Notes: generated from the sequence alone by a model not told the origin. Positions 40,934-59,335 are shown, numbered from the stretch's first letter. The stretch: DNA of 64,000 bases from Parasaccharibacter apium (GCF_002592045.1 NZ_MEJG01000005.1:1-64000), one strand, 5' to 3'. Program-made: numbers and translations.

Positions 40934-40957
40934 GGCTTTAACTTTTAACCATTCTTA

Positions 40958-40993
40958 AAAAAAAGCCCTCCTTTTTAATAAGAGGGCTTTTTG
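40958..40993. terminator. Bidirectional terminator between mltG and the SYLF gene
   Basis: AAAAAGCCCTC (40960-40970) pairs with GAGGGCTTTTT (40982-40992); A and T runs flank the stem on both sides. Confidence 0.9.
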
Positions 40994-41019
40994 TTTAGCA
41001 AAAATTAGAAATTGCGCTT

Positions 41020-41709
41020 TTAGCGAGCAACAGCTTTCATCATCATACGACGAAGAGGATCTGCCGCCTTATTGTTGACGCGCATGTTAATGACAATATC
41101 CTCAGGACCAACAACTTGTCCGTAATAAGCACGGTTTGCCGCATTATTAGGCTTGAGTTTGCTGCTCCCTAAAGAGACGCCAGCAAAAACACCATTGCTT
41201 TTTTGTAGGGCATAAACTTCGCGATGATCGTTCGTAGCATTTGTTGCATGTGGGCCAAAACCAGCATCAGCACTAGCATCAAACGTATACTCGTGATCCA
41301 TCATAGATAAAACAGCTTTATGAGACGTAATGATGAGGAAGAGCTGGCTATGCTGATAACCTGCTTGCAATCCAAAAGAGCCAGCACTGAGATGATAGAA
41401 TGCAGGGTCAGACCAAGAGTTATTGGCACCACGCCCCATGAGAACGCATGTCCCCCCAGTACCACCGAAAACTAGGGACATCTTGGTGACATCAGGGCAA
41501 ATAACAATTGCCTTGGCATCGCGAAGTAGTTGTACAGTGTGCAAGTTTGACTTAGAATCGATGAAGGCAGATTGTACCGCAAAAGCTGCTTTATCGATTA
41601 ATGCCTGTTGCTTCCGCGGGGTGGAAACATCGGCTGCACATGCATTCATCGCCAGTATGCTTGTGGCGACGACTACAGCACGAGTAATGAACGCAAAAGG
41701 TTTTGACAT
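41020..41709 (-). CDS. SYLF (YSC84)-domain lipid-binding protein, exported
   Basis: A 229-residue protein with an N-terminal signal region (FAFITRAVVVATSILAMNACAAD). The Cys near residue 24 could be lipidated, but the lipobox is imperfect (Met-Asn-Ala-Cys). The SYLF/Ysc84 domain follows: AKAIVICPDVTKMSLVFGGTGGTCVLMGRG, then the SAGSFGLQAGYQHSQLFLIITS and VFAGVSLGSSKLKPNNAANRAYYG blocks. SYLF domains bind phosphoinositides in eukaryotes; in bacteria they are found in periplasmic proteins of unclear role. The inositol-phosphatase-like gene is its upstream neighbour. Confidence 0.85.
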   Translation of the reverse strand: MSKPFAFITRAVVVATSILAMNACAADVSTPRKQQALIDKAAFAVQSAFIDSKSNLHTVQLLRDAKAIVICPDVTKMSLVFGGTGGTCVLMGRGANNSWSDPAFYHLSAGSFGLQAGYQHSQLFLIITSHKAVLSMMDHEYTFDASADAGFGPHATNATNDHREVYALQKSNGVFAGVSLGSSKLKPNNAANRAYYGQVVGPEDIVINMRVNNKAADPLRRMMMKAVAR

Positions 41710-41756
41710 AAAGCTCTCCTATCATGAATAAAGGGACTGCCCTTACTAATATAAAC

Positions 41757-42551
41757 TTAATTTAGTGGAACGCCTAGAGCTTTAGATAAAGGATTTACAA
41801 TTAATGGGGCAGAAGCAAATATCGGGGTACGTTGGGTCAATCCTCCGTTTTTTAGGAAAGGGGATACATAAGCCCCTGCCTCATGTAATATGACAAGAGC
41901 AGCGGCTACATCCCATAGAAAAATAACATACTCATAATAACCATCAGAACGCCCACAAGCGACATCGGCAAGTGCTAAAGCACCGGAGCCAAGAGAACGT
42001 GGCATGGAGCCTTGCTCTATAAGGGAATTCATTTTCTCTGGGTACCATCCCTTTGGTACATAAGGAGACCACCCGATTTCCACCATGGACTCTTTTATAT
42101 TGTCAGTTGTCGCGGCATGGATCTTTTTATCATTCAGAAAGGCACCTTGGCCTAGACGGGCAGTAAAAGTTTCGTTCAGAAGCGGCGCTTCAATAATGCC
42201 AGCAACGGGCGTCTCACCATGCATTAATCCTACAGAAATACACCATCTTTTTCGCCCCCGAGCATAATTAGACGTTCCGTCAATAGGATCAATAATCCAG
42301 CGAAAGAGACCTACGGTTGTTTCGCCATATTCCTCACCTAAGAAAGAATCGTTGGGGAATAAATCGGATAAGTGCTCTACGAGAAAAGTTTCAACAGCTT
42401 TATCAGCTGCTGTCACATAATTTTGATGCCCTTTCAATTCAGCAACAGGCTTTCCAGGAGCAGGCTGCATTTTTATTGCCAACTTTGAAGCGTCTTTAAT
42501 AATTTTTAATGCCGCTTGGAAGCGGGAATCAATCTCAGATGTGCACGGCAT
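41757..42551 (-). CDS. Inositol monophosphatase-family phosphatase
   Basis: A 264-residue Mg2+-dependent sugar-phosphate phosphatase. Family motifs are the Glu-Glu of FLGEEYGE near residue 70, IDPIDGTSNYARG near 88 and WDVAAALVILHEAGAYV near 215. Members act on inositol phosphate, 3'-phosphoadenosine nucleotides or histidinol phosphate; the substrate is not clear from sequence. A histidinol-phosphatase role is an alternative. It lies about 190 bases from the divergent GINT1-like gene of the sphingolipid locus. Confidence 0.85.
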   Translation of the reverse strand: MPCTSEIDSRFQAALKIIKDASKLAIKMQPAPGKPVAELKGHQNYVTAADKAVETFLVEHLSDLFPNDSFLGEEYGETTVGLFRWIIDPIDGTSNYARGRKRWCISVGLMHGETPVAGIIEAPLLNETFTARLGQGAFLNDKKIHAATTDNIKESMVEIGWSPYVPKGWYPEKMNSLIEQGSMPRSLGSGALALADVACGRSDGYYEYVIFLWDVAAALVILHEAGAYVSPFLKNGGLTQRTPIFASAPLIVNPLSKALGVPLN

Positions 42552-42623
42552 TTCAGGATCTCTCGATGAGTTATTTAAAAAATAAAGGGACGTTGGGGAG
42601 GATATAAGGTGAAGGAATTTTTC

Positions 42624-42637
42624 TCAACTAGAGTTGA
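42624..42637. promoter_or_regulatory. 14-bp palindrome upstream of the GINT1-like gene
   Basis: TCAACT-AG-AGTTGA is perfectly symmetrical and lies in the divergent gap between the phosphatase and the sphingolipid-locus gene at 42745. It may be an operator. The sequence does not obviously match the larger repeat at 48450-48475. Confidence 0.3.
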
Positions 42638-42744
42638 TATAGAACATTGAACAATATGGGGTTGAAATGAAAAGGAGCCTTTCATACGGAAAAAGGGGAT
42701 TGTATGATGGGGGAACTAGAGAACACATCTGTAAGGTAAAAATT

Positions 42745-43632
42745 ATGCAACTTTTTAAAATGGATTATTGGCGCTCAGCAATTTTGCATGCCCCTTTTGA
42801 ACAGATCTTTCATCAAAATAGTTTAGATGATGTTGACATGACCTTTTTGCCATCATGTGGTCAAGAAGGGTTTTTGGCTGATCCTTTTGGGTTATGGCAG
42901 GACGGCAAGCTTTATGTCTTTGCTGAATTTTATGATTATAAGAAAAGCAAAGGCGTTATTGATGTTCTTATTTATGATCAAACATTTACCTTATTAGAGC
43001 GACGCACTGTTTTAAAAGAGAAATGGCACCTCTCATATCCATATGTTTTTCGATATGAGGGAGCGATTTATATGCTTCCCGAAGGTTATAAGTCAGGACG
43101 CTTAACTTTATACAAGGCTCGTTCCTTCCCTTACGAATGGGAGAAGGTTTCTGCTTTTATGTTTCCGATTGGTGCTATTGATGCAACACCGCTTTATCAT
43201 GCCGGGCGGTGGTGGTTATTTTGGACTCCTCCTGAACCAAAATCATGCAGGCAAAGTACCCTACATATCGCTCTAGCAGAGGAGTTGACAGGCCCGTGGT
43301 GTGATCTAGGTCGTTTTCTTATTGATAAGAGTGGAGCACGCCCCGGCGGTACACCGTTTGTAGAAGGAGAGGATGTTTTTTTACCAGTTCAGGATTGCAG
43401 CGTAACTTATGGAGGGGGGCTGCGCCTTCTTCAGTTATCTGGGTTTAATAAAGGAAGGCCTTCATTATGTGGAGGTGAAGCTGTACCGTTACATACGCCG
43501 GAATTGAGAGAATATCCTGATGGTATGCATACGCTTTCGGCGGCAGGACCTGTCACCTTAGTTGATTTTAAAAAAATTCGATGTGGAGTACGGCCGGCCA
43601 TTCTTAAGCTTAGAAAAACCTTCCTAAAGTAA
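42745..43632 (+). CDS. GINT1-N-terminal-domain-like protein (putative sphingolipid glycosyl transfer)
   Basis: About 295 residues. ADPFGLWQDGKLYVFAEF, SYPYVFRYEGAIYMLPEGYKSGRLTLY, and IGAIDATPLYHAGRWWLFWT are blade-like repeats of a five-bladed propeller. I recognise them as the domain at the N-terminus of plant glucosamine inositolphosphorylceramide transferase 1 and of bacterial proteins in polysaccharide loci. The ATG at 42745 has AAGG 8 bases upstream; a start at 42667 would add 26 residues of doubtful character. No partner glycosyltransferase domain is fused to it. It ends convergently against the MobA-like gene. Involvement in ceramide head-group modification is inferred from location. 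Confidence 0.6.
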   Translation: MQLFKMDYWRSAILHAPFEQIFHQNSLDDVDMTFLPSCGQEGFLADPFGLWQDGKLYVFAEFYDYKKSKGVIDVLIYDQTFTLLERRTVLKEKWHLSYPYVFRYEGAIYMLPEGYKSGRLTLYKARSFPYEWEKVSAFMFPIGAIDATPLYHAGRWWLFWTPPEPKSCRQSTLHIALAEELTGPWCDLGRFLIDKSGARPGGTPFVEGEDVFLPVQDCSVTYGGGLRLLQLSGFNKGRPSLCGGEAVPLHTPELREYPDGMHTLSAAGPVTLVDFKKIRCGVRPAILKLRKTFLK

Positions 43633-43651
43633 TCTTGCTTTAGGAAGGTTT
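43616..43651. terminator. Bidirectional terminator between the GINT1-like and MobA-like genes
   Basis: AAACCTTCCTAAAG (43616-43629) pairs perfectly with CTTTAGGAAGGTTT (43638-43651), a 14-bp stem. It overlaps the ends of both convergent reading frames. Confidence 0.85.
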
Positions 43652-44405
43652 ATAAGCCTTTCAATAATTGCGTTGCAAGTTGAGCATCGGCGGGTTTATC
43701 AACGTCCACAGCGGCACGTCCGTCCGAGAGAGGCAGCAACCGGACATAGGCCCCTGTTAATGTGTGAATTCTCTCTTCTAATCGTTGTACGCTAAGTGTT
43801 TTGGTAAGGAGGCGTAAAATAACAGGTAATCCTAATATCCGTGCCATGCGCCAGGGATGCTTACGATGATGCTGTAACCGACACCATAGTTTGATGACGT
43901 TTAGAGATTTGGCCGTGCCTAACCAAAAAAGATTACACCCTGAAAAACTGATATCAGAAAGGTGAATATAAGTCCGTTTTGTTTGGGGCACGTCCCGTTG
44001 GATTGTACTCTTTAAAGCGATCCCGGCAGAAATATCCGCCTTGATCAAAAGGCTTTTTTGGAGAAACTCCTTAACCCATTCAGGTTGAAGCAGTGCATGA
44101 TCAGCTGTTGTTACAAGACAAGGCGTGCCAATTCGTGTAATGGCTTGCAGAACACTTTCACTAGGAGAAGGGCCAGCTTGTAAAATAGCAACACGCCCCC
44201 TCAAATGACTAAGGCAGTGAGGTTGTTCTATGCTGACCCATATGTGTCCGATCTCAGGGGTTTGTTCTAACGCGTGGACAACACGATCAATCATCGGCAC
44301 TCCTTGGATTGGAAGGAGTGCCTTATGTGTAACATTACCCATTTGAGCCAACGGATCACGCTCTCCATCGCGTGATCCGGCTAAAATCAAAACAGGAATT
44401 GTCAT
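43650..44405 (-). CDS. MobA-like nucleotidyltransferase (sphingolipid locus)
   Basis: A 251-residue NTP-transferase with the Rossmann-like nucleotidyltransferase fold. The N-terminus is PVLILAGSRDGERDPLA, followed by HKALLPIQGVPMIDRVV and a TTADHALLQP strand holding the metal Asp. The G-x-G-x-x-R loop of typical enzymes is altered to GSRDGERDP. The C-terminal part (residues 180-250) has two hydrophobic helices. The start overlaps the hydroxylase stop by 4 bases. Similar NTP-transferases sit in known alphaproteobacterial sphingolipid loci, where they may activate an anionic head group. Substrate is unknown. Confidence 0.72.
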   Translation of the reverse strand: MTIPVLILAGSRDGERDPLAQMGNVTHKALLPIQGVPMIDRVVHALEQTPEIGHIWVSIEQPHCLSHLRGRVAILQAGPSPSESVLQAITRIGTPCLVTTADHALLQPEWVKEFLQKSLLIKADISAGIALKSTIQRDVPQTKRTYIHLSDISFSGCNLFWLGTAKSLNVIKLWCRLQHHRKHPWRMARILGLPVILRLLTKTLSVQRLEERIHTLTGAYVRLLPLSDGRAAVDVDKPADAQLATQLLKGL

Positions 44406-45208
44406 GCGCTTTTGGCAAGCTCTTCTTTTTTTGGTGCACGTGCAGGGTCAGGCCGATCACGCGGAGGTGCGCCCGTACGGCGCATAACCCAAGGATAGCG
44501 CTCGGCTTCTTCCACTGTGTAGCCTAGATTAAAAACATAAGGACTGCGAGGACGGTCTTTAGCCGCGCGATAGAAAGTTCCCATTAAACGATCAGGAAGA
44601 TAATTCGTGATACCATAGTTCCCATCTTCATCATGAAAATGATGTAGCACATGAAGTTGTTTAATATATACCACCCACTGCCAGCGCGGTTTATAAGCGA
44701 GGTGCTGGATACAATGAAAAAATTCGTAAATACATGTCATCACCAAGGCTGTAGACAACGCAGAAAAGGCACCACTCCAACCACCAATGATAGCACCAAT
44801 TGGCATGGTTATTGCCATCATTGTTGGAACCGTATTTAAAGGAGAACCGAACAATACTTCCAAAAGATGCGGGTCTTGATGATGATCGAAGTGAATACGC
44901 TTCCACATAGATGCTGTAATTGGATTGCGATAAAACCAACGTCCGTGAAGGATATAGCGATGAATAATATACCAGGCTGTTGGGTAAACAGCGACGATAA
45001 CAGGAATAGGAATAATTAATCCCCACCAGCTATGGCGTAGATACAAGCTGAGCGCAGCCGTTGTGATAATAAGGGCAAAATAGAGCAAGATCGTAGGATA
45101 AGTGAGATAGGCAGCCCATAATTGAGAAAGGTTCATCTTTCCCAAGTCATAACTTCTGCCTTGATGCATAAGAGTCGTGCCCTGAAAAAACTTTTTAAAC
45201 GTACTCAT
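44402..45208 (-). CDS. Fatty acid hydroxylase superfamily membrane protein (probable ceramide/fatty-acyl hydroxylase)
   Basis: A 268-residue diiron membrane hydroxylase. Four membrane helices surround the histidine motifs: HRYILH (about residue 84), HFDHHQDPH (about 107), HCIQH (about 165) and LHVLHHFHDE (about 185). The set matches yeast Scs7/human FA2H, which 2-hydroxylates ceramide fatty acids, but lacks their cytochrome b5 domain. A C-terminal Pro/Arg/Lys-rich tail ends the protein. The ATG at 45208 was chosen because it overlaps the lptG-like stop (ATGA). Hydroxylation of the ceramide acyl chain or long-chain base is inferred from location and family. Confidence 0.82.
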   Translation of the reverse strand: MSTFKKFFQGTTLMHQGRSYDLGKMNLSQLWAAYLTYPTILLYFALIITTAALSLYLRHSWWGLIIPIPVIVAVYPTAWYIIHRYILHGRWFYRNPITASMWKRIHFDHHQDPHLLEVLFGSPLNTVPTMMAITMPIGAIIGGWSGAFSALSTALVMTCIYEFFHCIQHLAYKPRWQWVVYIKQLHVLHHFHDEDGNYGITNYLPDRLMGTFYRAAKDRPRSPYVFNLGYTVEEAERYPWVMRRTGAPPRDRPDPARAPKKEELAKSA

Positions 45209-46305
45209 TTTTCCTCCATTCGCAGTATCCAGGCCAAGCTGAACAGGGCCGCCACAACCTGACCAGAACATATAGCGAGTAATATGGGAAGGGAACCCGC
45301 ATTTCCCAAGGCAGAAATCATACCTTGGAGGATAACGATACCCAACCCAGCTGCCATCACATATACAGGGAGAGGGGTTCTTAACCCCGCACGTGGTGGA
45401 ATATATGTGATAGGCAACGTAACAAGAAGCATTACGGCCATCTGCAACGGCAAGAACAAGATAGCATATAGTGCCATAAAATAATTTGACTTAGGTAAAT
45501 TTAAGGGGGCTTTTCCAGAAAAAATTTCTCGGAATTGATGGGGAGTATAATAAATTCCAGGAAGGGTCATATTAATGATCTCTGTTGGCGTGACCGCAAG
45601 AGACGGCGGAAAAAACTCAGACGTTATCTTTGCTTGCGTATTGTTTTGGTACAAATTAATGCGACTAAATGTCCCATGGGCCACCCATTGCTTATTTTCG
45701 TATGTTAAATTTTCGTAATATTGTGTGGCTGTGAGGGCTCCCCCTTCTGGATCACGGCGATAAAGCGTAACGTGCGATAATATATTCCCACCGTGACTTA
45801 TGGATTCTATTCTAACAATGTCAGACCCCGTACGAAACCACAGACTATGGAGGTCATCTGTAGCATGAGCTTGAGTTGCGCCTTCATTCCACCAGCGGTT
45901 TAACTCCTGTTCAAAAGGAGGCACAACCCAAAATTTTAAAGCAATACAAATAATACTTAGGAGTAATGGGCCAGGCAAAAGATAACGAAACATATTAAGT
46001 GTGGAAAGACCCGCGGCGCGTAATACAGCGATTTCGCTTGAAAGAGCCATTCTTAATAAGGTGAATAGACCGCCAATCATTACGGAAAGGGGCATAATCT
46101 CAACAAGTAGTGTGGGGAGATGTAGTCCTACATATTTTAAGATACCGATAAAGCCTAGATTACGATCAAGAATGGTCGAAGCATCATCTAACAAGGCTAG
46201 AATTTCAAGAAGTGCCGTCAATACGCAACAGCAAATGAGTATTTTAGAAATAAGAGGACGAAGGAAAACCTTCAATAAGGTGGTTTGGAAGAAGAGAAAT
46301 CTCAT
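45205..46305 (-). CDS. LptF/LptG-family permease, LptG-like
   Basis: A 366-residue membrane protein of the YjgP/YjgQ family. Three N-terminal helices, the jellyroll periplasmic domain (about residues 135-250) and three C-terminal helices are evident. EIAVLRAAGLS and MLLVTLPITYIPPRAGLRTPL fit the family. LptFG complexes extract lipopolysaccharide from the inner membrane. This pair is embedded between a metallophosphoesterase and a lipid hydroxylase in an operon of the sphingolipid locus, so ceramide-type cargo is likely. It starts 4 bases after the lptF-like stop. Whether a separate housekeeping lptFG exists lies outside the window. Confidence 0.82.
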   Translation of the reverse strand: MRFLFFQTTLLKVFLRPLISKILICCCVLTALLEILALLDDASTILDRNLGFIGILKYVGLHLPTLLVEIMPLSVMIGGLFTLLRMALSSEIAVLRAAGLSTLNMFRYLLPGPLLLSIICIALKFWVVPPFEQELNRWWNEGATQAHATDDLHSLWFRTGSDIVRIESISHGGNILSHVTLYRRDPEGGALTATQYYENLTYENKQWVAHGTFSRINLYQNNTQAKITSEFFPPSLAVTPTEIINMTLPGIYYTPHQFREIFSGKAPLNLPKSNYFMALYAILFLPLQMAVMLLVTLPITYIPPRAGLRTPLPVYVMAAGLGIVILQGMISALGNAGSLPILLAICSGQVVAALFSLAWILRMEEK

Positions 46306-46309
46306 ATCA

Positions 46310-47476
46310 TTAATCCATCTTTTTTAGATGTTTTTGCCGGCTATTGCGCCACGAAATTTGAGAGCGAGATAATAAAGCGGCCGTGCACCCAATACAAAAA
46401 ATTGCTTCAGGCAACCAAAGTGTTAGCCATACTGAAGCTGTTCCGTTTGCAGCAAGGCTATCACCAAACAAAAGAACTTCGTCAAACCCAACGAGAATAA
46501 CTGCAAGTAAAATTTGCCCAAGAGCAGACCGTCTGCGTTTCTTTCCAACAGCGAAAGCGATGGACAAAAAAGGAATAAACATAATGCTTATAGCGCGCGC
46601 TAAACGAAAATCTATTTCAGCACGAAGGCTTGTATGAGAAATATGTGATGAATTACTTCGTAAGGCTTGGATAAGCTCCATGGTGGTCAGTTCTCGCTCA
46701 TCGTTACCGCGAGAGCGAAAAGCTTGTTGACTGCTAGAACGTTCAATCAAACGGGCAATATGTTCAAAATGGGTGACAGAAACATGACCATCTGGCTGTT
46801 CGGGTGATTGAGTCCGAACAATCTGACCATCCCAAAGGTCAAGTTGAGTGGATTTATCTCTTTCAGAGAGGGTAAGTAAGCCCTTGGGGGCTGTAATTAA
46901 TTCCGTTGTACCATTTTCTTTCACGTCACGTATAAAAATCCGGCGTAAACGGGAACCGCCATGATCAACATAATCGGCTGTTAAAAGAGTCGTTGTAGAT
47001 GTTGTTGCAAACATATCAGATTGCAGGTGAGGAGCCCAGCCGGTATGTCTGGCAAAATAAAAACCCTCGCGATAATCATATCGAGCAATTGGTTGCAGAT
47101 AACCGTAAAGTAAAACACTTAAAACAGCAAGAATAGTACCGACTTTGATATAAGGCTGGCTGATGCGGAGCAAAGAAATGTGTCCTGCATATAACACGTC
47201 GATCTCATTATGCTCACTCATGCGATTAATCGTCATAAAAACGGAAATACAGAGTGCTGCAGGAAGTGCCAATCCCATGTAATGGGGAAGAAGATCACTT
47301 AAAAGAGTTAATAAGGTCGCAATAGAACTTCCACTGCTTGCAAGACGGTTGAAGAGAGCTAAGAGCCTATCCAGCAGTAAAGCAATGAGCATAGTCCCCA
47401 AAGCAATTGTGAAGGGAGGTATCAACTGGCGCAGCAAGTAGCGATCAAGAGTAGGCAGAGAACTGCGAATTAACAT
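46310..47476 (-). CDS. LptF/LptG-family permease, LptF-like
   Basis: A 388-residue permease partner. It begins LPTLDRYLLRQLIPPFTIALGTMLIAL, the LptF opening, with a MSEHNEIDVLYAGHISLLRI loop. The periplasmic domain (about residues 130-260) is followed by FRLARAISIMFIPFLSIAFAVGKKRRRS. The ATG at 47476 was chosen because it overlaps the phosphoesterase stop by 7 bases (ATGTTAA); a start at 47515 would overlap by 46. It is coupled to the lptG-like gene. Confidence 0.82.
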   Translation of the reverse strand: MLIRSSLPTLDRYLLRQLIPPFTIALGTMLIALLLDRLLALFNRLASSGSSIATLLTLLSDLLPHYMGLALPAALCISVFMTINRMSEHNEIDVLYAGHISLLRISQPYIKVGTILAVLSVLLYGYLQPIARYDYREGFYFARHTGWAPHLQSDMFATTSTTTLLTADYVDHGGSRLRRIFIRDVKENGTTELITAPKGLLTLSERDKSTQLDLWDGQIVRTQSPEQPDGHVSVTHFEHIARLIERSSSQQAFRSRGNDERELTTMELIQALRSNSSHISHTSLRAEIDFRLARAISIMFIPFLSIAFAVGKKRRRSALGQILLAVILVGFDEVLLFGDSLAANGTASVWLTLWLPEAIFCIGCTAALLSRSQISWRNSRQKHLKKMD

Positions 47477-48393
47477 TCTACCCGCCTTAAAGAGGATGTA
47501 GCGGCAGTATGCCACGTAAAATGTGAAAAAGTATGCCCCGAAATGGTTCTACGTTGCACAGTAATGTTCCAACCTTCTCGGTCTGGTTTAAAGCTAAGAT
47601 AATTCCAGCCAGCCATACGCCTTAGTTTTTGACTGTCCATCGCTGCGGCGCTAACCCCAAGTAAAGGTATGTTTGTGTTTTCAACCGTCGTGAAGGTAGC
47701 ATCGTGGGAATGACCATGCAAAACTAGTTCAGCGCCACAAGAACTTAAAATTTCACCTAAGGCATGGGTATTGATAAGGGATTTTCTATAAGGGAGCAGG
47801 CCCTTGCGAGGAGGATGATGTAACATGACCACCCGGCAGTATCCCTCTTTTCCTAGTTCTGCAAGAAGTTTAGCTAAATTATTACGCTGTTTTTTGTTAA
47901 TAAAACCATAAGCTGTAAAAGGAAGAGTTGGGAGTGCAGAGTTTAAACCAACAACAGCAACGCCATCAAAAAAACGAACAAAAGGAAATGTTTTTCCAGA
48001 CCATTCTTCCCATAAGGCTAGACTGTTTTTATGAGAGATTGGCGCCATGAAATCATGATTCCCTGGCACGACGATTGGAAGGTTAGGTAAAGATTTAAGC
48101 CATGTTGTAGCCTGTATATATTCTTCTTTTGTCCCAAAATTAGTTAGGTCGCCACTAATAAGTAAGGCACGTATGTGCGTATATGTAGAAATATTTTTAA
48201 GAAGTTGTTCAGTAATGATGGGGCGTAATAAATGACGTCTTTTGCTGGCCCATAACACACGACTCAATAATCTCTTATTGAGGAATGATGTCCATGGAAT
48301 TGTAGGAGGAGGCAGGTGAGGATCTGATATATGAGCTAAATGAATTATGGAGTCGTGCCGATTAAGAGAGGAGGGAGGTATATTAAAAAACAT
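47470..48393 (-). CDS. Calcineurin-like metallophosphoesterase of the sphingolipid operon
   Basis: About 307 residues. The motif set is HISDPHLPP near residue 20, SGDLTNFGTKEEY near 80, PGNHDFM near 108, LHHPP near 190 and HGHSHDATF near 230. These resemble 3',5'-cAMP phosphodiesterase CpdA or lipid phosphatases such as LpxH-like enzymes. It is first in the minus-strand operon that includes lptF-like, lptG-like, hydroxylase and MobA-like genes, all overlapping or nearly so. The ATG at 48393 is preferred to GTG at 48411. A role in removing a phosphate from ceramide-phosphate or LPS-like lipids is a guess from location. Confidence 0.78.
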   Translation of the reverse strand: MFFNIPPSSLNRHDSIIHLAHISDPHLPPPTIPWTSFLNKRLLSRVLWASKRRHLLRPIITEQLLKNISTYTHIRALLISGDLTNFGTKEEYIQATTWLKSLPNLPIVVPGNHDFMAPISHKNSLALWEEWSGKTFPFVRFFDGVAVVGLNSALPTLPFTAYGFINKKQRNNLAKLLAELGKEGYCRVVMLHHPPRKGLLPYRKSLINTHALGEILSSCGAELVLHGHSHDATFTTVENTNIPLLGVSAAAMDSQKLRRMAGWNYLSFKPDREGWNITVQRRTISGHTFSHFTWHTAATSSLRRVEC

Positions 48394-48449
48394 TGTGGCA
48401 CCATGGGTCACGATAGAGAACAGTCTTTACAGGGAAACTCCCTTCTGGT

Positions 48450-48475
48450 TCCTTTAACATAGTCATGTTAAAGGA
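48450..48475. promoter_or_regulatory. Perfect 11-bp inverted repeat between divergent sphingolipid operons
   Basis: TCCTTTAACAT at 48450-48460 and ATGTTAAAGGA at 48465-48475 are exact reverse complements with a 4-base AGTC spacer. The repeat lies between the metallophosphoesterase start (48393) and the lipid-kinase start (48528). The symmetry and position fit an operator for a dimeric regulator controlling both operons. A hairpin in the kinase leader is an alternative. Confidence 0.6.
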
Positions 48476-48527
48476 TTTCGACCAGCTTGTGAAACAAGAT
48501 GGTATTCTGTTTCTGGGCGGGTGTGTG

Positions 48528-49523
48528 ATGGATAATTGCAAGAGTTCTATGAAAAATTTACAACCAGCTCTGATCCATAATCCGAATAGTCGTAAAAACA
48601 TACAAGATGATGGTCGTTTTATAAGGATGGCGCGTCGGAAGATGGGAGATTTTTGTGTCTCTACGTTAAATGATAGTTATCTTGCAGGCCATTTAGCCGA
48701 ATTAAAAAAGAAAGGCGTCAATTTTATCGCTATTGATGGTGGCGATGGGACCGTAAGTGCTTGTCTAACAGCCATTGCCAATGCGTATCGTGGAATGCCT
48801 TTACCAGCGGTTGCTGTTTTGCCATCTGGCAATACAAATCTTATAGCTGGAGACGTGGGCTTTGGACTACGTGGAGAATTAGCTCTTGATAGAATTATGA
48901 ATCCGGCGAGTTTAAGAAGTTCCATCCGAGCCCCAATTAAATTATCTTGGATAGGAAAAAACTGTCCTCCCGTATTAGGCATGTTTGGGGGGTGTACGGG
49001 CTATGCTCGTGCTGTTCGTATTGCTCATTCACCACATGTTTTAAGGTTTGCCCCGCATGATCTAGCAGTTTTTTTCACAATCTTTAGTAGTTTGGCGAGT
49101 CTCTTGTTCCGTCGCAGTCGGAAATCTTGGATGAGGGGAAATGAATTATCTTGGCTTTCTGAAAATGATAATGGAATGAAAGAAGAAAAGAGAGGACGCA
49201 GTTTCCTTTACATGGCTACAGCTTTAGAAAAACTTTCTTACGGCATTTGGCCATTTTGGAATGCAGGATCAGGACGAAGTGGTTTTCATTTTTTAGATGT
49301 TAATGCCTGTCCTAAACGCCTTCCTTCGGCATTCTTTTATCTTTTGAGGGGGCGTGTCCCCGGTTGGTTATGGTCGCATGAAGATTATCAAAGTATGGTT
49401 GTAAAGAAGATGATTTTAGAAACTGATAGTGATTTTGTTTTAGATGGTGAGGTTTTTCCTGCGTCTGGGAATGAAAAAATTATGTTAGAAGAGGGGCCGA
49501 GCTTTCGGTTTTTACATGTTTGA
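48528..49523 (+). CDS. Diacylglycerol/ceramide kinase-family lipid kinase
   Basis: About 331 residues of the DAGK catalytic family. It begins PALIHNPNSRKN, continues with the nucleotide loop AIDGGDGTVSACLTAI, then VLPSGNTNLIAGD, and ends with DSDFVLDGEVFPASG. Known alphaproteobacterial sphingolipid loci carry such a kinase acting on ceramide, so ceramide or a long-chain base is the likely substrate. I prefer the ATG at 48528 over 48465 because the latter lies inside an inverted repeat and has no ribosome site. The start remains uncertain. The stop overlaps the next gene by 8 bases. Confidence 0.75.
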   Translation: MDNCKSSMKNLQPALIHNPNSRKNIQDDGRFIRMARRKMGDFCVSTLNDSYLAGHLAELKKKGVNFIAIDGGDGTVSACLTAIANAYRGMPLPAVAVLPSGNTNLIAGDVGFGLRGELALDRIMNPASLRSSIRAPIKLSWIGKNCPPVLGMFGGCTGYARAVRIAHSPHVLRFAPHDLAVFFTIFSSLASLLFRRSRKSWMRGNELSWLSENDNGMKEEKRGRSFLYMATALEKLSYGIWPFWNAGSGRSGFHFLDVNACPKRLPSAFFYLLRGRVPGWLWSHEDYQSMVVKKMILETDSDFVLDGEVFPASGNEKIMLEEGPSFRFLHV

Positions 49524-50457
49524 TCTAATAGATAAGATACTCATTAACGATTTAACCACATCAGTTCCTGAAGAAGTAGTAGAATTCTCAGAATCTATTG
49601 TTAATAGATTAAATGTGCTTCCGGTAGGAATATTGTTTTATGGATCCGTTCTACGAGAGCTGAATCCAGAAGGAATATTAGACTTTTACGTTATTACAGA
49701 GAAAACGTCTGTGTTTAACGGTAATGTTGTCTCGTGTTTGGCGAGTTATGTTCTTCCTCCTAATGTTTATTATATGGAACATAAGGTAAGAGGAGTAACG
49801 TTACGTGCAAAAGTTGCTTTTTTATCAGAAGAGCAATTTTTAAAAAGAAGTACCTTTTCTAGCATCGACACAACTATTTGGGCACGTTTTTGTCAACCTG
49901 TACGCTTAGTTTGGGTACAGAATCAGCAAGGGGCGGACTGTATTTTACGCAGTTTACGACAGTGTGTCATAACCGCGTCCTGTTGGGCAGCTTTATTAGG
50001 ACCAGAGAGAGGAGAAGCCATGACTTATTGGCACAATCTTTTTTCACATACCTATGCCGTAGAGCTGCGTGTAGAAAAGAAAGGACGGAGTTCGACTTTA
50101 TTAGAGGGGCGGGCAAGTCGATATACTGCATTACTTATAGGGGCATGGCAGAATGTAAATCTGCGATATTCCCAACAGGGTGATTTTTTGTACCCTCAAT
50201 TAACTGCTTTATCTCGTAATAAAGCTAAGAAGAAATGGCAAAGAATTTCTTCTATTGGACGTCCATTAAATATAGTGCGTCTTATAAAAGCTGCTTTCAC
50301 CTTCCAAGGTGGTATGGCGTATTTATTGTGGAAAATAAAAAGACACACTGGCATAGAGATTCATGTATCTGACTTTGAACGCAATCACCCTATATTAACC
50401 TTACCCCTCTTTTTATGGCGTATTAGAAGAATGAAGAAAAATATCAGTAAAATTTAA
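49516..50457 (+). CDS. Nucleotidyltransferase-fold protein of the sphingolipid locus (Tam41-like?)
   Basis: A 313-residue cytoplasmic protein. Near residue 35 it has GILFYGSVLRELNPEGILDFYVITE, which matches the strand and Gly-Ser...Asp-x-Asp/Tyr start of nucleotidyltransferase-fold enzymes. The nearest family I can suggest is mitochondrial-type CDP-diacylglycerol synthase Tam41. Later parts (residues 150-310) have no motif I recognise; a basic patch lies around KNKAKKKW. It is coupled to the lipid kinase, which would supply a phosphorylated lipid as substrate for nucleotidyl transfer. That pathway is inference. Confidence 0.6.
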   Translation: MFDLIDKILINDLTTSVPEEVVEFSESIVNRLNVLPVGILFYGSVLRELNPEGILDFYVITEKTSVFNGNVVSCLASYVLPPNVYYMEHKVRGVTLRAKVAFLSEEQFLKRSTFSSIDTTIWARFCQPVRLVWVQNQQGADCILRSLRQCVITASCWAALLGPERGEAMTYWHNLFSHTYAVELRVEKKGRSSTLLEGRASRYTALLIGAWQNVNLRYSQQGDFLYPQLTALSRNKAKKKWQRISSIGRPLNIVRLIKAAFTFQGGMAYLLWKIKRHTGIEIHVSDFERNHPILTLPLFLWRIRRMKKNISKI

Positions 50458-50466
50458 ACGTTAATA

Positions 50467-50499
50467 GAAGCCCCCGTCAGTTGTTCTGAGGGGGGCTTC
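50467..50499. terminator. Bidirectional terminator between the nucleotidyltransferase-like gene and spt
   Basis: GAAGCCCCCGTCAG (50467-50480) pairs with CTGAGGGGGGCTTC (50486-50499) around a 5-base loop, with one mismatch. It lies between convergent genes. Confidence 0.85.
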
Positions 50500-50503
50500 G
50501 TGA

Positions 50504-51703
50504 CTAAGCAATACTCAAATGTTTAGCAATTGACCCGAAAGCTTCTACAGCACGGTCTATTTCCTCAAAAGAATGAGTAGCCATTACAGAACAACGTAAT
50601 AATGGTCGATTATCCGGGGTAGCTGGCGGCAAAGAGAGATTAACATATACGCCAGCATCCAGCAAAGCATTCCAAAAGGAAAGGGCCTGCGGCACATCAT
50701 CTAATGTTACGGCGATCACCGGAGAAATAAAATTACTGGTGTTTAAGCCGACAGACTTAAATCCATTATGGAGGCGTGCTGCATTCCGCTGTAAATTTTC
50801 TCTTAGCTCCGGCGCGCTCTGAATTTCTTCTAGAGCTGCTAAGGTGGCAGCGATAATTTCTGGTGGCAGTGATGCTGTAAACATATATGGGCGTGAACAC
50901 AGACGGATTAGGTCAATCTCATCGTGGTTCGTTACACAATAGCCCCCAACCGTTCCGAGTGACTTTGAAAATGTACCTACAACAAAGTCGATATCATCTT
51001 CACAATTCTGCATTTCTGCAACGCCTCGCCCATGTTGGCCGAGTACCCCAAAGGAATGGGCTTCATCAACCAGCAGTGGAATATTATGGCGTTTCTTAAT
51101 TTCAACAAACTCATCCAGAGGAGCAATATTCCCTGTCATGGAATAAATACCCTCAGCAATGATAAGACGCGCTCCTGTTCCTTTATTGCTGCGAGCAACG
51201 CGTTTCTCAAGGTCAGCAGGGTCATTATGACGAAAACGAATAACTTGAGCGCCAGACAGGCGCGCGCCATCGTAAATAGACGCATGGCTATCCGCATCTA
51301 GGAAGAGCGTATCATCTTTATTTACGAGAGCAGAAATCGTACCTAAATTAGCCTGGTAGCCAGTAGAGAAAACCATAGCATGTTTTCTCTTAAATGTTTT
51401 GGCTAGGGCGTGTTCCAGCTTTTGATGCAAACTAAAGGTGCCGTTCGCAATTCGTGATCCGGTGGTCCCAACACCCATAGTCTTTGCCGCATGAATAGCC
51501 GCATCTCGGGCAGCATTGGATTGACTAAGCCCAAGATAGTTATTTGTCCCAAAAAGGAGCGTTTCACGTCCTTCAATAATGCCTACCGTAGCAGAGAGTG
51601 GCCGCTCTATAACAACACCAAAAGGATTGCGAGGACTCGCCGCCATGAGGGATTCATAATTCCCACGAAGAGTGGCATATTTATCAAACAACCCCACACT
51701 CAT
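50504..51703 (-). CDS. spt: Serine palmitoyltransferase (alpha-oxoamine synthase family)
   Basis: A 399-residue soluble PLP enzyme condensing L-serine with an acyl thioester to 3-ketosphinganine. The domain has NNYLGLSQSN, GTTGSRIANGTFSLHQKLE, LVDEAHSFGVLGQHGRG and the PLP Lys in GTFSKSLGTVGGYC near residue 245. The same family includes KBL and BioF. Coupling by a 4-base overlap to a dedicated ACP and an acyl-AMP ligase points to SPT, as in Caulobacter, rather than BioF. It is the last gene of its operon. Confidence 0.85.
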   Translation of the reverse strand: MSVGLFDKYATLRGNYESLMAASPRNPFGVVIERPLSATVGIIEGRETLLFGTNNYLGLSQSNAARDAAIHAAKTMGVGTTGSRIANGTFSLHQKLEHALAKTFKRKHAMVFSTGYQANLGTISALVNKDDTLFLDADSHASIYDGARLSGAQVIRFRHNDPADLEKRVARSNKGTGARLIIAEGIYSMTGNIAPLDEFVEIKKRHNIPLLVDEAHSFGVLGQHGRGVAEMQNCEDDIDFVVGTFSKSLGTVGGYCVTNHDEIDLIRLCSRPYMFTASLPPEIIAATLAALEEIQSAPELRENLQRNAARLHNGFKSVGLNTSNFISPVIAVTLDDVPQALSFWNALLDAGVYVNLSLPPATPDNRPLLRCSVMATHSFEEIDRAVEAFGSIAKHLSIA

Positions 51704-51954
51704 GCTTGCTCTGCCTTAATCGCGTGGAGGCATCCAGCTAGATCGTCAATAGTGCGGATGTCAGCGAGTTTATCAAGTGGGACAGAGACATCAAGCGTAT
51801 CTTCAATTTCCATCACGAAATTCATGACAGCAAGACTATCAAAGGCCAGGTCCTCTACAATACGACTATCTCCGTTAATGTCACGTGGGACTTTAGGATT
51901 CTCCAATAACTTCTGGAGAATCATGTGGGAGATATCAGAAACACTATCGGTCAT
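51700..51954 (-). CDS. Dedicated acyl carrier protein for sphingolipid synthesis
   Basis: An 84-residue ACP with the phosphopantetheine Ser in DLAFDSLAVMNFVMEIE near residue 38. It is not the fatty-acid-synthesis ACP at 38187, from which it differs clearly. Located between the acyl-AMP ligase and spt, it probably carries the acyl chain to serine palmitoyltransferase. The stop overlaps the spt start. Confidence 0.88.
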   Translation of the reverse strand: MTDSVSDISHMILQKLLENPKVPRDINGDSRIVEDLAFDSLAVMNFVMEIEDTLDVSVPLDKLADIRTIDDLAGCLHAIKAEQA

Positions 51955-52029
51955 GTTTTGTCCCTTTGTAGCCTACGGAGGATGGGAGATTATAGAGCCA
52001 TCCTTCGTAAGGAGATAGTCCTCTTGGAC

Positions 52030-53778
52030 TTATTCAAATTCGTTGTTCAGATACATCGCTTTAGCGCGAGCCCTTGTCAACTTTCCGGAAGATGTCTGGG
52101 GGAGGGACCGGGGAGGGACCAACACAACATCTACATCGATTCCATGCATACGGCGGAAAAGAGCAATGAGTTCGTCTTTTAATGCGCGGCGAGGCTCATC
52201 ATCGGTAAAACGACATTGCACCAAAGCGACTACAACTTCACCTTTTCCTGAATCAACAGAAAAAACAGCAACATCACGAGAGCGAAGAGAACTTATCTCA
52301 TGTTCGGCAGCCCATTCCAAATCTTGGGGCCAGATATTACGAGCATTAATAATGATGAGGTCTTTTGCTCGGCCTGTAATGACGATTTGTCCGTCTAGCA
52401 TATAGCCAATATCGCCAGTATTTAACCAGCCGTCAGGTGAGAGTACGGCTTCCGTTTCTTCTGGTCGGTTAAAATAACCTGACATTAAGCTTGGTCCGCT
52501 AACAAAGACAGTACCGATTTCACGCTCTTTTAGGGCATTACCGGAAGAATCGCGTACCTCAATCTGATGGTGTGGTAGGGGGAGGCCACAAAGGACAAAA
52601 TCGCGCGCACTTTCCGTCCCTTCATGGGAGGGGCAGGCAAAATCCTCTCGCTCCATAGTCGCTAGATCAATCGTATCGACACGCAAACCCGTATTCAGCG
52701 GAGCAAAGCTGATAGCTAATGTCGTCTCGGCCATGCCGTAACTAGCAACGAAAGCGCGTTTATCGAAGTTACGCTTCTCGAATATTTCAGCAAAATTATG
52801 AATGATATGGGGGCGAATCATATCCCCACCAATACCGGCGACACGCCATGAGGACAGATCTATATCCTCCCGGGCACCACGTCGCGCGCACAACTCATAT
52901 CCAAAAGAGGGACTATAAGACATAGTACCTTTATTACGCGCAATGAGCTCTAACCAAACATTTGGCCGACGGGCAAACTCACGTGTTGGAAGCAAATCGA
53001 CTGAAAGTTGACACGTCATGGGCGTAAGGAAAAAACCAACTAACCCCATATCATGATAGAGCGGCAGCCAAGAAACACAGCGATCCTCACGAGGATCATC
53101 ACTAGGATGGACCTGCAGACCATATTTCGCGATAGCATGAGCGTTCGCCATCCCTGCCTTTTGGGTTACGCTGATTCCCATAGGGAAGCGCGTGCTGCCA
53201 GAGGAAAATTGCAGGTAGGAGAGTTCATCCCCAGTGACCTGGGGTAGAGGAATCTCCTTTTCTTCAAGGGCCATCAATTCTGCAGGGGAGCCACCGAAAA
53301 CAAGGGAGAAGCCCTCAATAATATCAGCTGTCCATCCCCCGATGACGTCGGGCACCACAACAGCACGAGCATCTGCGCTAGTGATCATCCCACGTAGTGT
53401 GGCGATATAGCCTTCTTTCCCTCCAAAAGCGACCGGCAAGGGAAGGGGAGCAGGGACTAAACCAGCATACTGACAACCGAAAAAAATACGCGCGAAATCA
53501 CCGTCGCTCTCGGCAATGATAGCGACTCTATCTCCAGGTTCTAAGCCTGCACTAAGCAAACGTCGAGCCGTTTTATGAGCCTGTTGGCGCAGCTTCCTGT
53601 AGGGTAAAGCCTCAAGGAGAGTGCCACGGCCTGAGTAAATGTTGAAACCACTTTCCCCCTGGGCTGCATAGTCCAAAGCAGCAGGAAAGCTGGGGAAATC
53701 TCCATAACGGCGTTCGATTCCTGAACGGCTCGGTGTGATGGAAAGAGCGGGGGGGGTATTTTGGTTGGCCTCGGTCAA
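52030..53778 (-). CDS. Fatty acyl-AMP ligase / acyl-ACP synthetase of the sphingolipid locus
   Basis: A 582-residue adenylate-forming enzyme. The motifs are LQFSSGSTRFPMGISVT (P-loop), LPLYHDMGLVGFFL, the adenine-binding ASYGMAETTL, DGWLNTGDIGY and the C-terminal lysine region LPQTSSGKLTRARAK. LPLYHDMGL is typical of fatty acyl-AMP ligases. It should charge the adjacent ACP for serine palmitoyltransferase. It is first in the ligase-ACP-spt operon, with a 75-base gap before the ACP start. Confidence 0.88.
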   Translation of the reverse strand: MTEANQNTPPALSITPSRSGIERRYGDFPSFPAALDYAAQGESGFNIYSGRGTLLEALPYRKLRQQAHKTARRLLSAGLEPGDRVAIIAESDGDFARIFFGCQYAGLVPAPLPLPVAFGGKEGYIATLRGMITSADARAVVVPDVIGGWTADIIEGFSLVFGGSPAELMALEEKEIPLPQVTGDELSYLQFSSGSTRFPMGISVTQKAGMANAHAIAKYGLQVHPSDDPREDRCVSWLPLYHDMGLVGFFLTPMTCQLSVDLLPTREFARRPNVWLELIARNKGTMSYSPSFGYELCARRGAREDIDLSSWRVAGIGGDMIRPHIIHNFAEIFEKRNFDKRAFVASYGMAETTLAISFAPLNTGLRVDTIDLATMEREDFACPSHEGTESARDFVLCGLPLPHHQIEVRDSSGNALKEREIGTVFVSGPSLMSGYFNRPEETEAVLSPDGWLNTGDIGYMLDGQIVITGRAKDLIIINARNIWPQDLEWAAEHEISSLRSRDVAVFSVDSGKGEVVVALVQCRFTDDEPRRALKDELIALFRRMHGIDVDVVLVPPRSLPQTSSGKLTRARAKAMYLNNEFE

Positions 53779-53809
53779 ACCTGAACTAGCTCCGTTCGGA
53801 CCGTCAGAT

Positions 53810-53821
53810 TAAGATATCTTA
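53810..53821. promoter_or_regulatory. 12-bp palindrome upstream of the acyl-AMP ligase
   Basis: TAAGATATCTTA is perfectly symmetrical and lies about 32 bases upstream of the ligase start codon, in the 256-bp gap between ligase and alr. It may be a promoter or operator element. The rest of this gap is AT-rich leader with no other gene that I can see. Confidence 0.3.
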
Positions 53822-53961
53822 GGGCCCCTGCGAAATCAAAAAACATATCCCTTTTAACAGGGCAAAGGCTGTTAGGCCTATAGCTAAACAGCATCTGTGC
53901 CTGCTCTCTAATACAAAAAGGGGTTTCTCCTCAAGCTTATGTCATAATTTTCACGGACAAA

Positions 53962-53990
53962 ATTGCAAAGAATGGCTATTTTAGTGCAAT
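53962..53990. promoter_or_regulatory. Spaced inverted repeat upstream of alr
   Basis: ATTGCA at 53962-53967 and TGCAAT at 53985-53990 are reverse complements 17 bases apart, a spacing seen for dimeric regulators. The GTG start of alr lies about 45 bases downstream. Evidence is the symmetry only. Confidence 0.25.
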
Positions 53991-54034
53991 CTTTATAAAA
54001 GGTTGATGAGAAAGAACCTAAAAGAGGGGGCTTT

Positions 54035-55120
54035 GTGAAGCCATATTGCAAGCATAAGCAAGTGAGCGCACGTCTGATGGTGGACCTAGGGGCCATTAGG
54101 CATAACCATGCATCCTTAGCGGCTTTTGCCTCGGGTGCGGAATGCGCTGCTGTTGTGAAAGCTGACGCATATGGCCTTGGAATGAAACAAATTTCGGCAG
54201 CCCTTGTTGGAAAGGTGAATACATTTTTTGTTGCTCACCCGGAAGAAGGTATTACACTGCGTAAATTATATCCAGATAAGACTATTTTTGTTTTGCATGG
54301 TTTCTTACCTGGTTACGCTGAAGTCATGTCCTATTATAATTTATATCCTGTACTAAATAGTGTATCACAAGTACATAATTGGCAGTCTTTTTGTCATGAT
54401 AAGGGATATAACTATCCTGCGGCTATACAATTTGATACAGGTATGTCACGTTTTGGTATTTCAGAGAGTGAGTTGCACAACGAATATGTACAAAGATTAA
54501 AGCCTGTGTTGGTTATGAGCCATTTAGCGTGTGCCGATCAACCAAATCATCCGGCAAATGCGGCGCAACGCGCGTGTTTTTTGAGGATGAGTGCCGCTTT
54601 CCCAGGTGTGCCACGCTCACTTTCGGCCTCAGCAGGAATTCTTTTAGGTAAAGAATATCATTTTGAAATGGTCCGTCCTGGAGTGAGTCTTTACGGATTG
54701 ACCGAACAGCAAACACATATGTCGCTTCGTCCTGCAGTCGGGTTGGAGGCTCAAATATTACAGATTAGGGAAATTCCAGCAGGAGCAGCTATTGGCTATG
54801 GTTTAACCTATTGTGCTGAGCGCCCCACACGGGTTGCTACGGTAGGGATTGGTTACGCAGATGGGGTTTTTCGTTCTTTTGCTCAGAAAGGTTTTTTGTG
54901 GAAAGGAAACGTACCCCTGCCAGTAATTGGCCGAATTTCAATGGACAGTCTTTCTGTTGATATAACAGTTCTTTCCCCTGATTCTGTTTTAGAAGGTGAT
55001 TGGTTAACATTGATTGGTCCTGAACAAGATTTAGCCCGTATGGCAGAGCAAGCTGGAACGATTAGTTATGAGATTTTAACGTCGCTGGGATACCGTTTTG
55101 ATCGTTTTTATCAAGATTAA
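54035..55120 (+). CDS. alr: Alanine racemase
   Basis: A 361-residue PLP enzyme making D-alanine for peptidoglycan. The PLP lysine is in AAVVKADAYGLG near residue 43. The second catalytic region is TVGIGYADGVFRSF, with the catalytic Tyr in IGYGLTYC and YADG, and ISMDSLSVDIT carries a substrate-binding stretch. The GTG start has AGAGGGGG about 6 bases upstream. It shows no obvious link with the sphingolipid genes next door. Confidence 0.93.
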   Translation: MKPYCKHKQVSARLMVDLGAIRHNHASLAAFASGAECAAVVKADAYGLGMKQISAALVGKVNTFFVAHPEEGITLRKLYPDKTIFVLHGFLPGYAEVMSYYNLYPVLNSVSQVHNWQSFCHDKGYNYPAAIQFDTGMSRFGISESELHNEYVQRLKPVLVMSHLACADQPNHPANAAQRACFLRMSAAFPGVPRSLSASAGILLGKEYHFEMVRPGVSLYGLTEQQTHMSLRPAVGLEAQILQIREIPAGAAIGYGLTYCAERPTRVATVGIGYADGVFRSFAQKGFLWKGNVPLPVIGRISMDSLSVDITVLSPDSVLEGDWLTLIGPEQDLARMAEQAGTISYEILTSLGYRFDRFYQD

Positions 55121-55245
55121 AAGAATAGCCTGTGTGTTTCGTAGAGCGGGTTTATGATTAGTTGGCATAATATATATTATAAGATTATTCCTAAGGAATC
55201 CTCTCTTGAGTGTGTTTAGATCAAAAGTGCTGTTATAATCTCCTG

Positions 55246-56625: not shown

Positions 56626-56636
56626 TAAGAAGTTTA

Positions 56637-59219: not shown

Positions 59220-59335
59220 CAGACATCTCCCCTATCCATTTTGCTAGCCTTATTGTGAGATTACGCACAAAACCATTATTGCGCAACCCAGGCCCTTACC
59301 CCCTCTTGGATGCACTGAATTAGAAAAATATTAGT

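Follow-up and report, generated by a model that had tools for sequence, protein, structure and literature searches.

A predicted sphingolipid synthesis and export locus with a Tam41-like CpgC protein in a Bombella-like acetic acid bacterium

Genes of the locus and their conservation

The window analysed here is a stretch of 64,000 nucleotides from Parasaccharibacter apium (NZ_MEJG01000005.1:1-64000; in our labels G000:C5:1-64000, where G000 is the genome of the window, C a contig and, below, L a locus). The genome is that of a Bombella-like acetic acid bacterium (AAB) of the Acetobacteraceae and is 1.85 Mb, complete by estimate. The window contains a group of genes, which we will term the Bombella locus, for a serine palmitoyltransferase (Spt) with its acyl carrier protein (ACP), a ceramide kinase and its neighbour CpgC, a second LptF/LptG pair, a hydroxylase, and several proteins that might act on a polar head group (Table 1). 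All of the gene classes that an earlier note on this sequence had named were found, with Pfam or NCBIfam profiles, where it had placed them.

Table 1. Genes and other features of the Bombella locus, with the basis for each assignment
Feature	Position	Strand	Basis and remarks
aasR, predicted fatty acyl-AMP ligase/acyl-ACP synthetase loading AcpR	52030..53778	-	PF00501; NF006624, 874 bits (cut-off 600)
acpR, dedicated acyl carrier protein	51700..51954	-	PF00550; 4-nt ATGA overlap with spt
spt, serine palmitoyltransferase	50504..51703	-	NF047599, 596.3 bits (cut-off 500); TFSKS motif of the pyridoxal phosphate lysine invariant
Likely shared terminator, GC-rich inverted repeat	50466..50505		Between the convergent ends of cpgC and spt
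cpgC ortholog, predicted Tam41-like CTP:ceramide-1-phosphate cytidylyltransferase	49516..50457	+	Orthology with Caulobacter sp. AP07; AlphaFold fold
cpgB ortholog, ceramide kinase (DAGK_cat, GGDGT)	48465..49523	+	PF00781; Caulobacter-type orthology; 8-nt overlap with cpgC
Calcineurin-type metallophosphoesterase, first gene of the export operon	47470..48411	-	PF00149; position conserved
lptF2, permease paralog, predicted sphingolipid exporter	46310..47515	-	PF03739; true start probably near 47476
lptG2, permease paralog, partner of LptF2	45205..46305	-	PF03739
Fatty-acid hydroxylase, di-iron histidine type	44402..45208	-	PF04116, 68.6 bits (cut-off 31); listed open reading frame (ORF) extends to 45271
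MobA/IspD-like nucleoside triphosphate (NTP) transferase, ortholog at the CC_1153 position (gene after cerS), not CpgD	43650..44405	-	PF12804
GINT1_N-domain protein, five-bladed propeller, GH130/GH43-like fold	42745..43632	+	PF24793, 116.6 bits (cut-off 27)
SuhB/IMPase-family gene, conserved left neighbour	41757..42551	-	PF00459; synteny

Gene overlaps in the sequence suggest three transcription units: aasR-acpR-spt on the minus strand; the kinase gene and cpgC on the plus strand; and, again on the minus strand, metallophosphoesterase-lptF2-lptG2-hydroxylase-NTP transferase, where the hydroxylase gene overlaps both of its neighbours by ATGA. (The overlap with lptG2 requires that the hydroxylase begin at the ATG at 45208, which is probably its true start.) The GINT1_N gene is on the plus strand and on its own. 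Its listed ORF is 42667-43632, and 42745 is an in-frame ATG that congeners also use as the start. The IMPase-family gene is a conserved neighbour in AAB and probably lies outside the pathway.

Spt is 86-91% identical in all nine congeners searched and 66-71% identical in five further genera of the family. We compared 20-kb stretches from six congeners and from four other genera; all carry these genes with order and strands unchanged, except that the GINT1_N slot varies. Because this order is kept, the locus is more than a chance assembly. G+C content falls from about 0.51 in the left part of positions 40001-60000 to 0.40-0.48 across the locus; as the congeners keep the gene order, recent transfer is not needed to explain the low values.

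We also compared a wider sample of 80 named loci, taken from a scan with the Spt alignment. Most named AAB loci (Gluconobacter, Asaia, Komagataeibacter, Acetobacter, and Commensalibacter) keep the order as far as contig ends allow. Beyond AAB, AasR-AcpR-Spt occurs with CpgC and the kinase, the metallophosphoesterase, LptF2/LptG2, and the NTP transferase in many loci of Caulobacter, Phenylobacterium, Azospirillum, Solimonas, and others. In Caulobacter sp. AP07 (L079), the genes encode a flippase-like protein, AasR, CerR, AcpR, and Spt; then CpgC and the kinase; at the CpgA position, a protein with the CDP-alcohol phosphotransferase motif DGx2ARx8Gx3Dx3D; and then the metallophosphoesterase, a HIT protein, LptF2, LptG2, CerS, and the NTP transferase. 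This agrees with the published order of CC_1168-CC_1152 (PMC11324152). Our mapping to C. crescentus genes relies on gene order and homology in AP07, rather than on C. crescentus sequences.

CpgC and the predicted CDP-ceramide step

In Caulobacter, CC_1160 and CC_1161 (CpgB and CpgC) are the two head-group genes required for ceramide phosphoglycerate (CPG) (PMC11324152), and CpgB is a ceramide kinase (PMC10331486). How CpgC converts ceramide-1-phosphate (C1P) to CPG has been called "yet unidentified" (PMC12275187). The Bombella CpgC has 313 amino acids. An AlphaFold model built from 30 sequences (pLDDT 91.8, pTM 0.89) has a nucleotidyltransferase plus winged-helix fold, and its only strong structural match is Tam41. 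The match to a Firmicutes Tam41 with bound cytidine triphosphate (CTP) and Mg (7ecd) covers both domains (Z = 18.2, 230 residues, 3.2 Å), S. pombe Tam41 follows (6ig4 and 6ig2, Z = 15.5), and the Foldseek E value for the Tam41 match is 2e-9. The next fold, that of aminoglycoside nucleotidyltransferases, reaches a Z of 7.2 over about half of the length of CpgC. Tam41 transfers cytidine monophosphate (CMP) from CTP to phosphatidic acid (PMC7018664, PMC11646218), and its active site retains only one of the fold's three acidic residues (PMC11646218). The invariant residues in the 30 CpgC sequences are Y42, G43, and S44 (the YGS motif), D56, Y58 (at the +2 position), and K99.

From the modelled fold, we propose that CpgC converts C1P and CTP to CDP-ceramide, which would fill the unassigned step of the pathway. 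C1P is the expected natural substrate because cpgC overlaps the ceramide kinase gene and because both genes are needed for CPG in Caulobacter.

Several observations weigh against this proposal. Neither CpgC nor its 29 orthologs matched any Pfam family beyond noise, even at an E value of 10; in particular, no CpgC sequence matched the Tam41 family at that threshold, and a sequence search of the PDB with CpgC found no Tam41 structure. A shared fold alone proves neither the reaction nor the lipid substrate. As to an enzyme that would use CDP-ceramide, the only CDP-alcohol transferases found in the genome are its two PF01066 genes, which are PgsA- and PssA-like; neither is a CpgA. Also, ceramide diphosphoglycerate (CPG2) could not be made by the route known from Caulobacter, because CpgA and CpgD are absent as far as searched.

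The term "CDP-ceramide" did not appear in the 5.39 million papers that we searched, but most subscription journals lay outside that search, so novelty is not proven.

The strongest alternative is that CpgC is a transferase of the phosphoglycerate type, or an adaptor, working on C1P directly in a CPG-making locus, so that CDP-ceramide is never formed and the Tam41 fold reflects mere ancestry. This would fit the published scheme, in which C1P goes to CPG in a single CpgC step (PMC12275187), and it would fit with CC_1160 and CC_1161 being the sole head-group genes required for CPG (PMC11324152). However, the fold match is specific to a cytidylyltransferase that uses CTP and a lipid phosphate, extends over both domains, and lies far above the matches to other nucleotidyltransferases. 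CpgC and Tam41 also have the signature of a single acidic residue in common. We therefore consider direct transfer to be rather unlikely, if still a serious competitor.

A second alternative is that CpgC is a general CDP-diacylglycerol (CDP-DAG) synthase for glycerophospholipids and that it lies in the locus by an accident of gene order. The fold is indeed that of CDP-DAG synthases, and no standard CdsA was located. (A search with a PROSITE-type motif found no CdsA in the stretches examined, which cover part of the genome, so this result is uninformative.) On the other hand, deletion of the Caulobacter ortholog leads to a loss of phosphosphingolipids in a viable mutant (PMC11324152), and in most of the alphaproteobacterial and gammaproteobacterial loci that hold cpgC, it adjoins and usually overlaps the ceramide kinase gene. 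This makes a role in general phospholipid synthesis improbable.

Ceramide formation, hydroxylation, export, and the head group

Two genes for ceramide formation appear to lie outside the window. CerS is at G000:C5:88187-89365 (331 bits with our A8 profile and 707 bits with A11) and forms a divergent pair with a gene for a short-chain dehydrogenase (SDR); the pair spans G000:C5:87322-89365 (L155:7322-9365), 34-36 kb from the locus. The SDR has 267 amino acids and no visible signal peptide. It carries the motifs TGASSGIG and YSGSK, which fit the TGxxxGxG and YxxxK patterns used to recognise a ketosphinganine reductase, and it is linked to a sphingolipid gene; a PDB search with it returned generic SDRs only. 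The best match to CerR in the genome of the window (84-99 bits) was rejected, as it is HpnA, in a hopanoid cluster beside squalene-hopene cyclase; in relatives, CerR genes that adjoin CerS or Spt reach 256-364 bits.

We surveyed 120 genomes of the family and counted CerS as present if it scored above 420 bits, which gave 39 genomes. The SDR adjoins CerS divergently in 30 of these. Among the other nine, there are six (G100, G130, G081, G118, G132, and G103) whose CerS locus includes a true CerR, two show neither SDR nor CerR in the stretch examined, and one (G030) is ambiguous. CerR beside an SDR-paired CerS was seen in no genome surveyed. In AAB, the SDR appears to take the place of CerR, and we infer from its motifs and linkage that it reduces 3-ketosphinganine. 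In Bacteroides, an SDR (BT_0972) performs this reduction (PMC9278070).

Some other arrangements were seen. In one genus (G019), a CerS-SDR pair is followed by an alpha-oxoamine synthase that is distantly related to Spt (L167, on G019:C110, 3823-7168); this is possibly an independent sphingolipid-like unit. Loci from Methylopila, Chenggangzhangella, Pararhizobium, and Hansschlegelia (L094, L101, L102, and L110) have neither a CerR between aasR and acpR nor an SDR of the AAB type. Several other Acetobacteraceae (L202, L206, and L207) have the order LptF2-LptG2-hydroxylase-CerS-NTP transferase. Because they keep CerS between the hydroxylase and the NTP transferase, CerS may have left the export operon in AAB.

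The histidine clusters of the hydroxylase (HX4H, HX2HH, HX3H, and HX2HH) are invariant. Its sole relative in a PDB search is yeast Scs7, a weak match (31 bits) in which the conserved histidines align. None of the Caulobacter loci that we examined has this hydroxylase, but it is common in related loci outside AAB. In Caulobacter, a different gene, of the DesA family, has been reported as an acyl-chain hydroxylase (PMC11324152).

The genome also encodes a canonical LptF/LptG pair (G000:C3:59578-61781), so the pair in the locus is a second one. In a maximum-likelihood tree, LptF2 and LptG2 of the locus group with those of other sphingolipid loci, including those of Caulobacter, and the canonical proteins stand outside on long branches. 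Because the canonical pair is set apart, the tree supports LptF2/LptG2 being an old and dedicated pair of paralogs. One LptC was found in the genome, beside LptA and LptB, although a diverged second copy could be missed. LptF2/LptG2 would share LptB and LptC with the canonical system or use a diverged LptC. Near the canonical pair, at C3:47095-50149 (L201:5095-8149), are genes for a Psd-like decarboxylase, a PssA-like CDP-alcohol transferase, and a second lipid kinase of the DAGK type.

For the head group, we considered whether the NTP transferase gene could be CpgD, whose signature residues are R16, K26, and D112 (PMC12275187), and rejected this. The spacing from R12 to K28 is sixteen, as against ten from R16 to K26 in CpgD, and in Caulobacter-type loci, cpgD is a gene of its own beside the NTP transferase gene (in several Caulobacteraceae, the two are convergent). 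A CpgD-type protein scores 54 bits with PF12804, and none of the seven PF12804 genes in the genome is CpgD: besides the gene in the locus, they are GlmU-, KdsB-, IspD-, RmlA-, ManC-, and GalU-like. The gene in the locus instead corresponds to CC_1153, which is required for CPG2 in Caulobacter (PMC11324152); beyond CpgB and CpgC, CPG2 needs CpgA, CpgD, and two more genes (PMC11324152). As Bombella keeps only CpgB and CpgC, plus the gene at the CC_1153 position, the simplest forecast is a CPG-type lipid and no CPG2 by the known route. A CPG-type (phosphoglycerate) head group is thus the most parsimonious prediction. In the literature searched, we saw neither a lipid analysis of Bombella nor a ceramide structure from AAB.

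As modelled, the GINT1_N protein most resembles GH130 mannoside phosphorylases and GH62/GH43 (Z of about 20-22). As its match to GH43 is below the cut-off, we claim no hydrolase function for it. GINT1_N proteins are found in 27 of the 39 genomes with CerS and in 10 of the 81 others (Fisher's exact test, P = 6e-10, not corrected for relatedness). In the ten genomes without CerS the ORF is longer (432-629 amino acids in most matches). In two genera (G031 and G017) the domain is encoded elsewhere in the genome, and the co-occurrence with CerS holds without synteny. A possible role for the protein is tailoring of the head group.

In plants, this domain belongs to an enzyme of glycosyl inositol phosphoryl ceramide (GIPC) synthesis, so a third alternative is that the product is a plant-like GIPC, with the GINT1_N protein, the IMPase, and the CTP-transferase-like protein supplying inositol phosphate and sugar. 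PF24793 is the N-terminal domain of the plant GIPC glycosyltransferase, an IMPase-family gene does adjoin the locus, and a GT4 glycosyltransferase is encoded between the NTP transferase and GINT1_N in several AAB loci, including those of Gluconobacter, Asaia, and one Commensalibacter (L060:18001-19071, L050:13988-15058, L051:12248-13321, and L077:11671-12759). Given these GT4 genes, a sugar-bearing head group is plausible in some AAB. However, the Bombella locus has no GT4 gene and its GINT1_N protein is a lone propeller that lacks the catalytic domain of the plant enzyme. Moreover, inositol-1-phosphate synthase was not found in the genome of the window, which led us to reject inositol as unlikely for the head group. 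A GIPC-like product is therefore very unlikely.

Least credible of all is that Spt works as BioF or KBL and that the locus has nothing to do with sphingolipids, which the earlier note had named as a way in which it could be wrong: these are all alpha-oxoamine synthases, and the BioF and KBL profiles do score against Spt, but only its own equivalog model (NF047599) is above the cut-off, as bioF reaches 344 bits (cut-off 426) and glycine C-acetyltransferase (KBL) reaches 327 (cut-off 460), and the genome encodes further alpha-oxoamine synthases elsewhere along with orthologs of ceramide kinase and CerS. Spt also has the context of a proteobacterial Spt, with a dedicated acpR upstream and aasR close by on the same strand. 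The view of the locus as one for sphingolipid synthesis and export is borne out by the Spt score and by the grouping of LptF2/LptG2 with the pair from the Caulobacter sphingolipid cluster. That the lipid has a modified polar head and resides in the outer membrane is still a prediction.

Proposed pathway and comparison with known systems

We think it probable, with some reservation, that the product made and exported by the locus is a hydroxylated phosphoceramide, with CDP-ceramide as an intermediate. The activities in this organism, the target of hydroxylation, the substrate of export, and the head group are all inferred. AasR would load a fatty acid onto AcpR, and Spt, judging from its family, would condense the AcpR-bound fatty acid with serine to form 3-ketosphinganine. 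The SDR and CerS would then reduce and N-acylate this to dihydroceramide, and the Scs7-like hydroxylase probably hydroxylates the ceramide. Once C1P is available, the Tam41-like CpgC would move CMP from CTP to it, and the resulting CDP-ceramide would act as the activated donor when a polar head group is added, for which the CPG type known from Caulobacter is the simplest choice. The NTP transferase, the phosphoesterase, and the GINT1_N protein probably tailor the head group. LptF2/LptG2, with the single set of LptB and LptC, would pull the product from the inner towards the outer membrane.

A bolder and more doubtful version, which we offer tentatively, is that in AAB, which lack CpgA and CpgD, the housekeeping enzymes PgsA or PssA use the CDP-ceramide made by CpgC to form ceramide versions of phosphatidylglycerol or phosphatidylethanolamine, and that a cytoplasmic SDR replaces the periplasmic CerR. 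If this is true, the sphingolipid pathway of AAB parallels phospholipid synthesis from CDP-DAG.

The step from C1P to CPG is unassigned in the model pathway, whose product helps Caulobacter to survive without lipopolysaccharide, and a concrete reaction for CpgC with named residues makes this step directly testable. The apparent replacement of CerR by an SDR bears on another open question. The electron donor of the periplasmic CerR of Caulobacter is not known (PMC11087976). Opinions also differ on whether reduction or acylation comes first; AAB would offer a natural case of a reduction that probably takes place in the cytoplasm. Also, the hosts of Bombella and its relatives are bees and other insects, and the outer-membrane lipids of these bacteria may matter for interaction with the host.

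Comparison with Tam41 (TAMM41), the mitochondrial CDP-DAG synthase, suggests how CpgC works. The two have the two-domain fold, the YGS motif, and a single conserved acidic residue in common, but they are only 11-13% identical, and the genomic context of CpgC favours C1P over phosphatidic acid. Because there is no match to Pfam's Tam41 family, we liken CpgC to Tam41 in its predicted working and do not class it as a member. The hydroxylase differs from yeast Scs7, a ceramide fatty-acid hydroxylase, in that it has no cytochrome b5 domain. The GINT1_N protein has PF24793 in common with the N-terminal domain of plant GINT1 (glucosamine inositolphosphorylceramide transferase) but consists of the GH130/GH43-like propeller, without the C-terminal glycosyltransferase domain.

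The closest known system is the CC_1168-CC_1152 cluster of Caulobacter crescentus, which makes CPG2. AasR, AcpR, Spt, CpgC, CpgB, the metallophosphoesterase, LptF2/LptG2, and the cerS-adjacent NTP transferase are common to both, in the same relative order and on the same strands. Unlike the Caulobacter cluster, Bombella has no CerR, CpgA, or CpgD as far as searched, only one LptC was found, and CerS is 35 kb away beside the SDR; conversely, only the Bombella locus includes the PF04116 hydroxylase and the GINT1_N protein. In gene content, the locus is the phosphosphingolipid cluster of Caulobacter in reduced form. The parallel with alphaproteobacterial ceramide loci that the earlier note had drawn thus holds, both for these Caulobacter-type orthologs and for the AAB loci (including Acetobacter), which are mostly syntenic. 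Its suggestion that the locus has extra head-group and hydroxylation genes holds in part: the hydroxylase is indeed an addition relative to the Caulobacter loci examined, but the head-group genes are not, as the kinase, the nucleotidyltransferase without a Pfam match, and the NTP transferase are orthologs of CpgB, CpgC, and CC_1153.

Within AAB, the published assignment of GOX1849 as CerR in Gluconobacter oxydans 621H is doubtful, because the best CerR-like match in Bombella is HpnA and because the SDR pairs with CerS. GOX2056-GOX2058 of the same strain encode an Spt of the same family in an acpR-spt-aasR arrangement (PMC9386255), and two Gluconobacter loci in our sample (L060 and L061) are syntenic with the Bombella locus.

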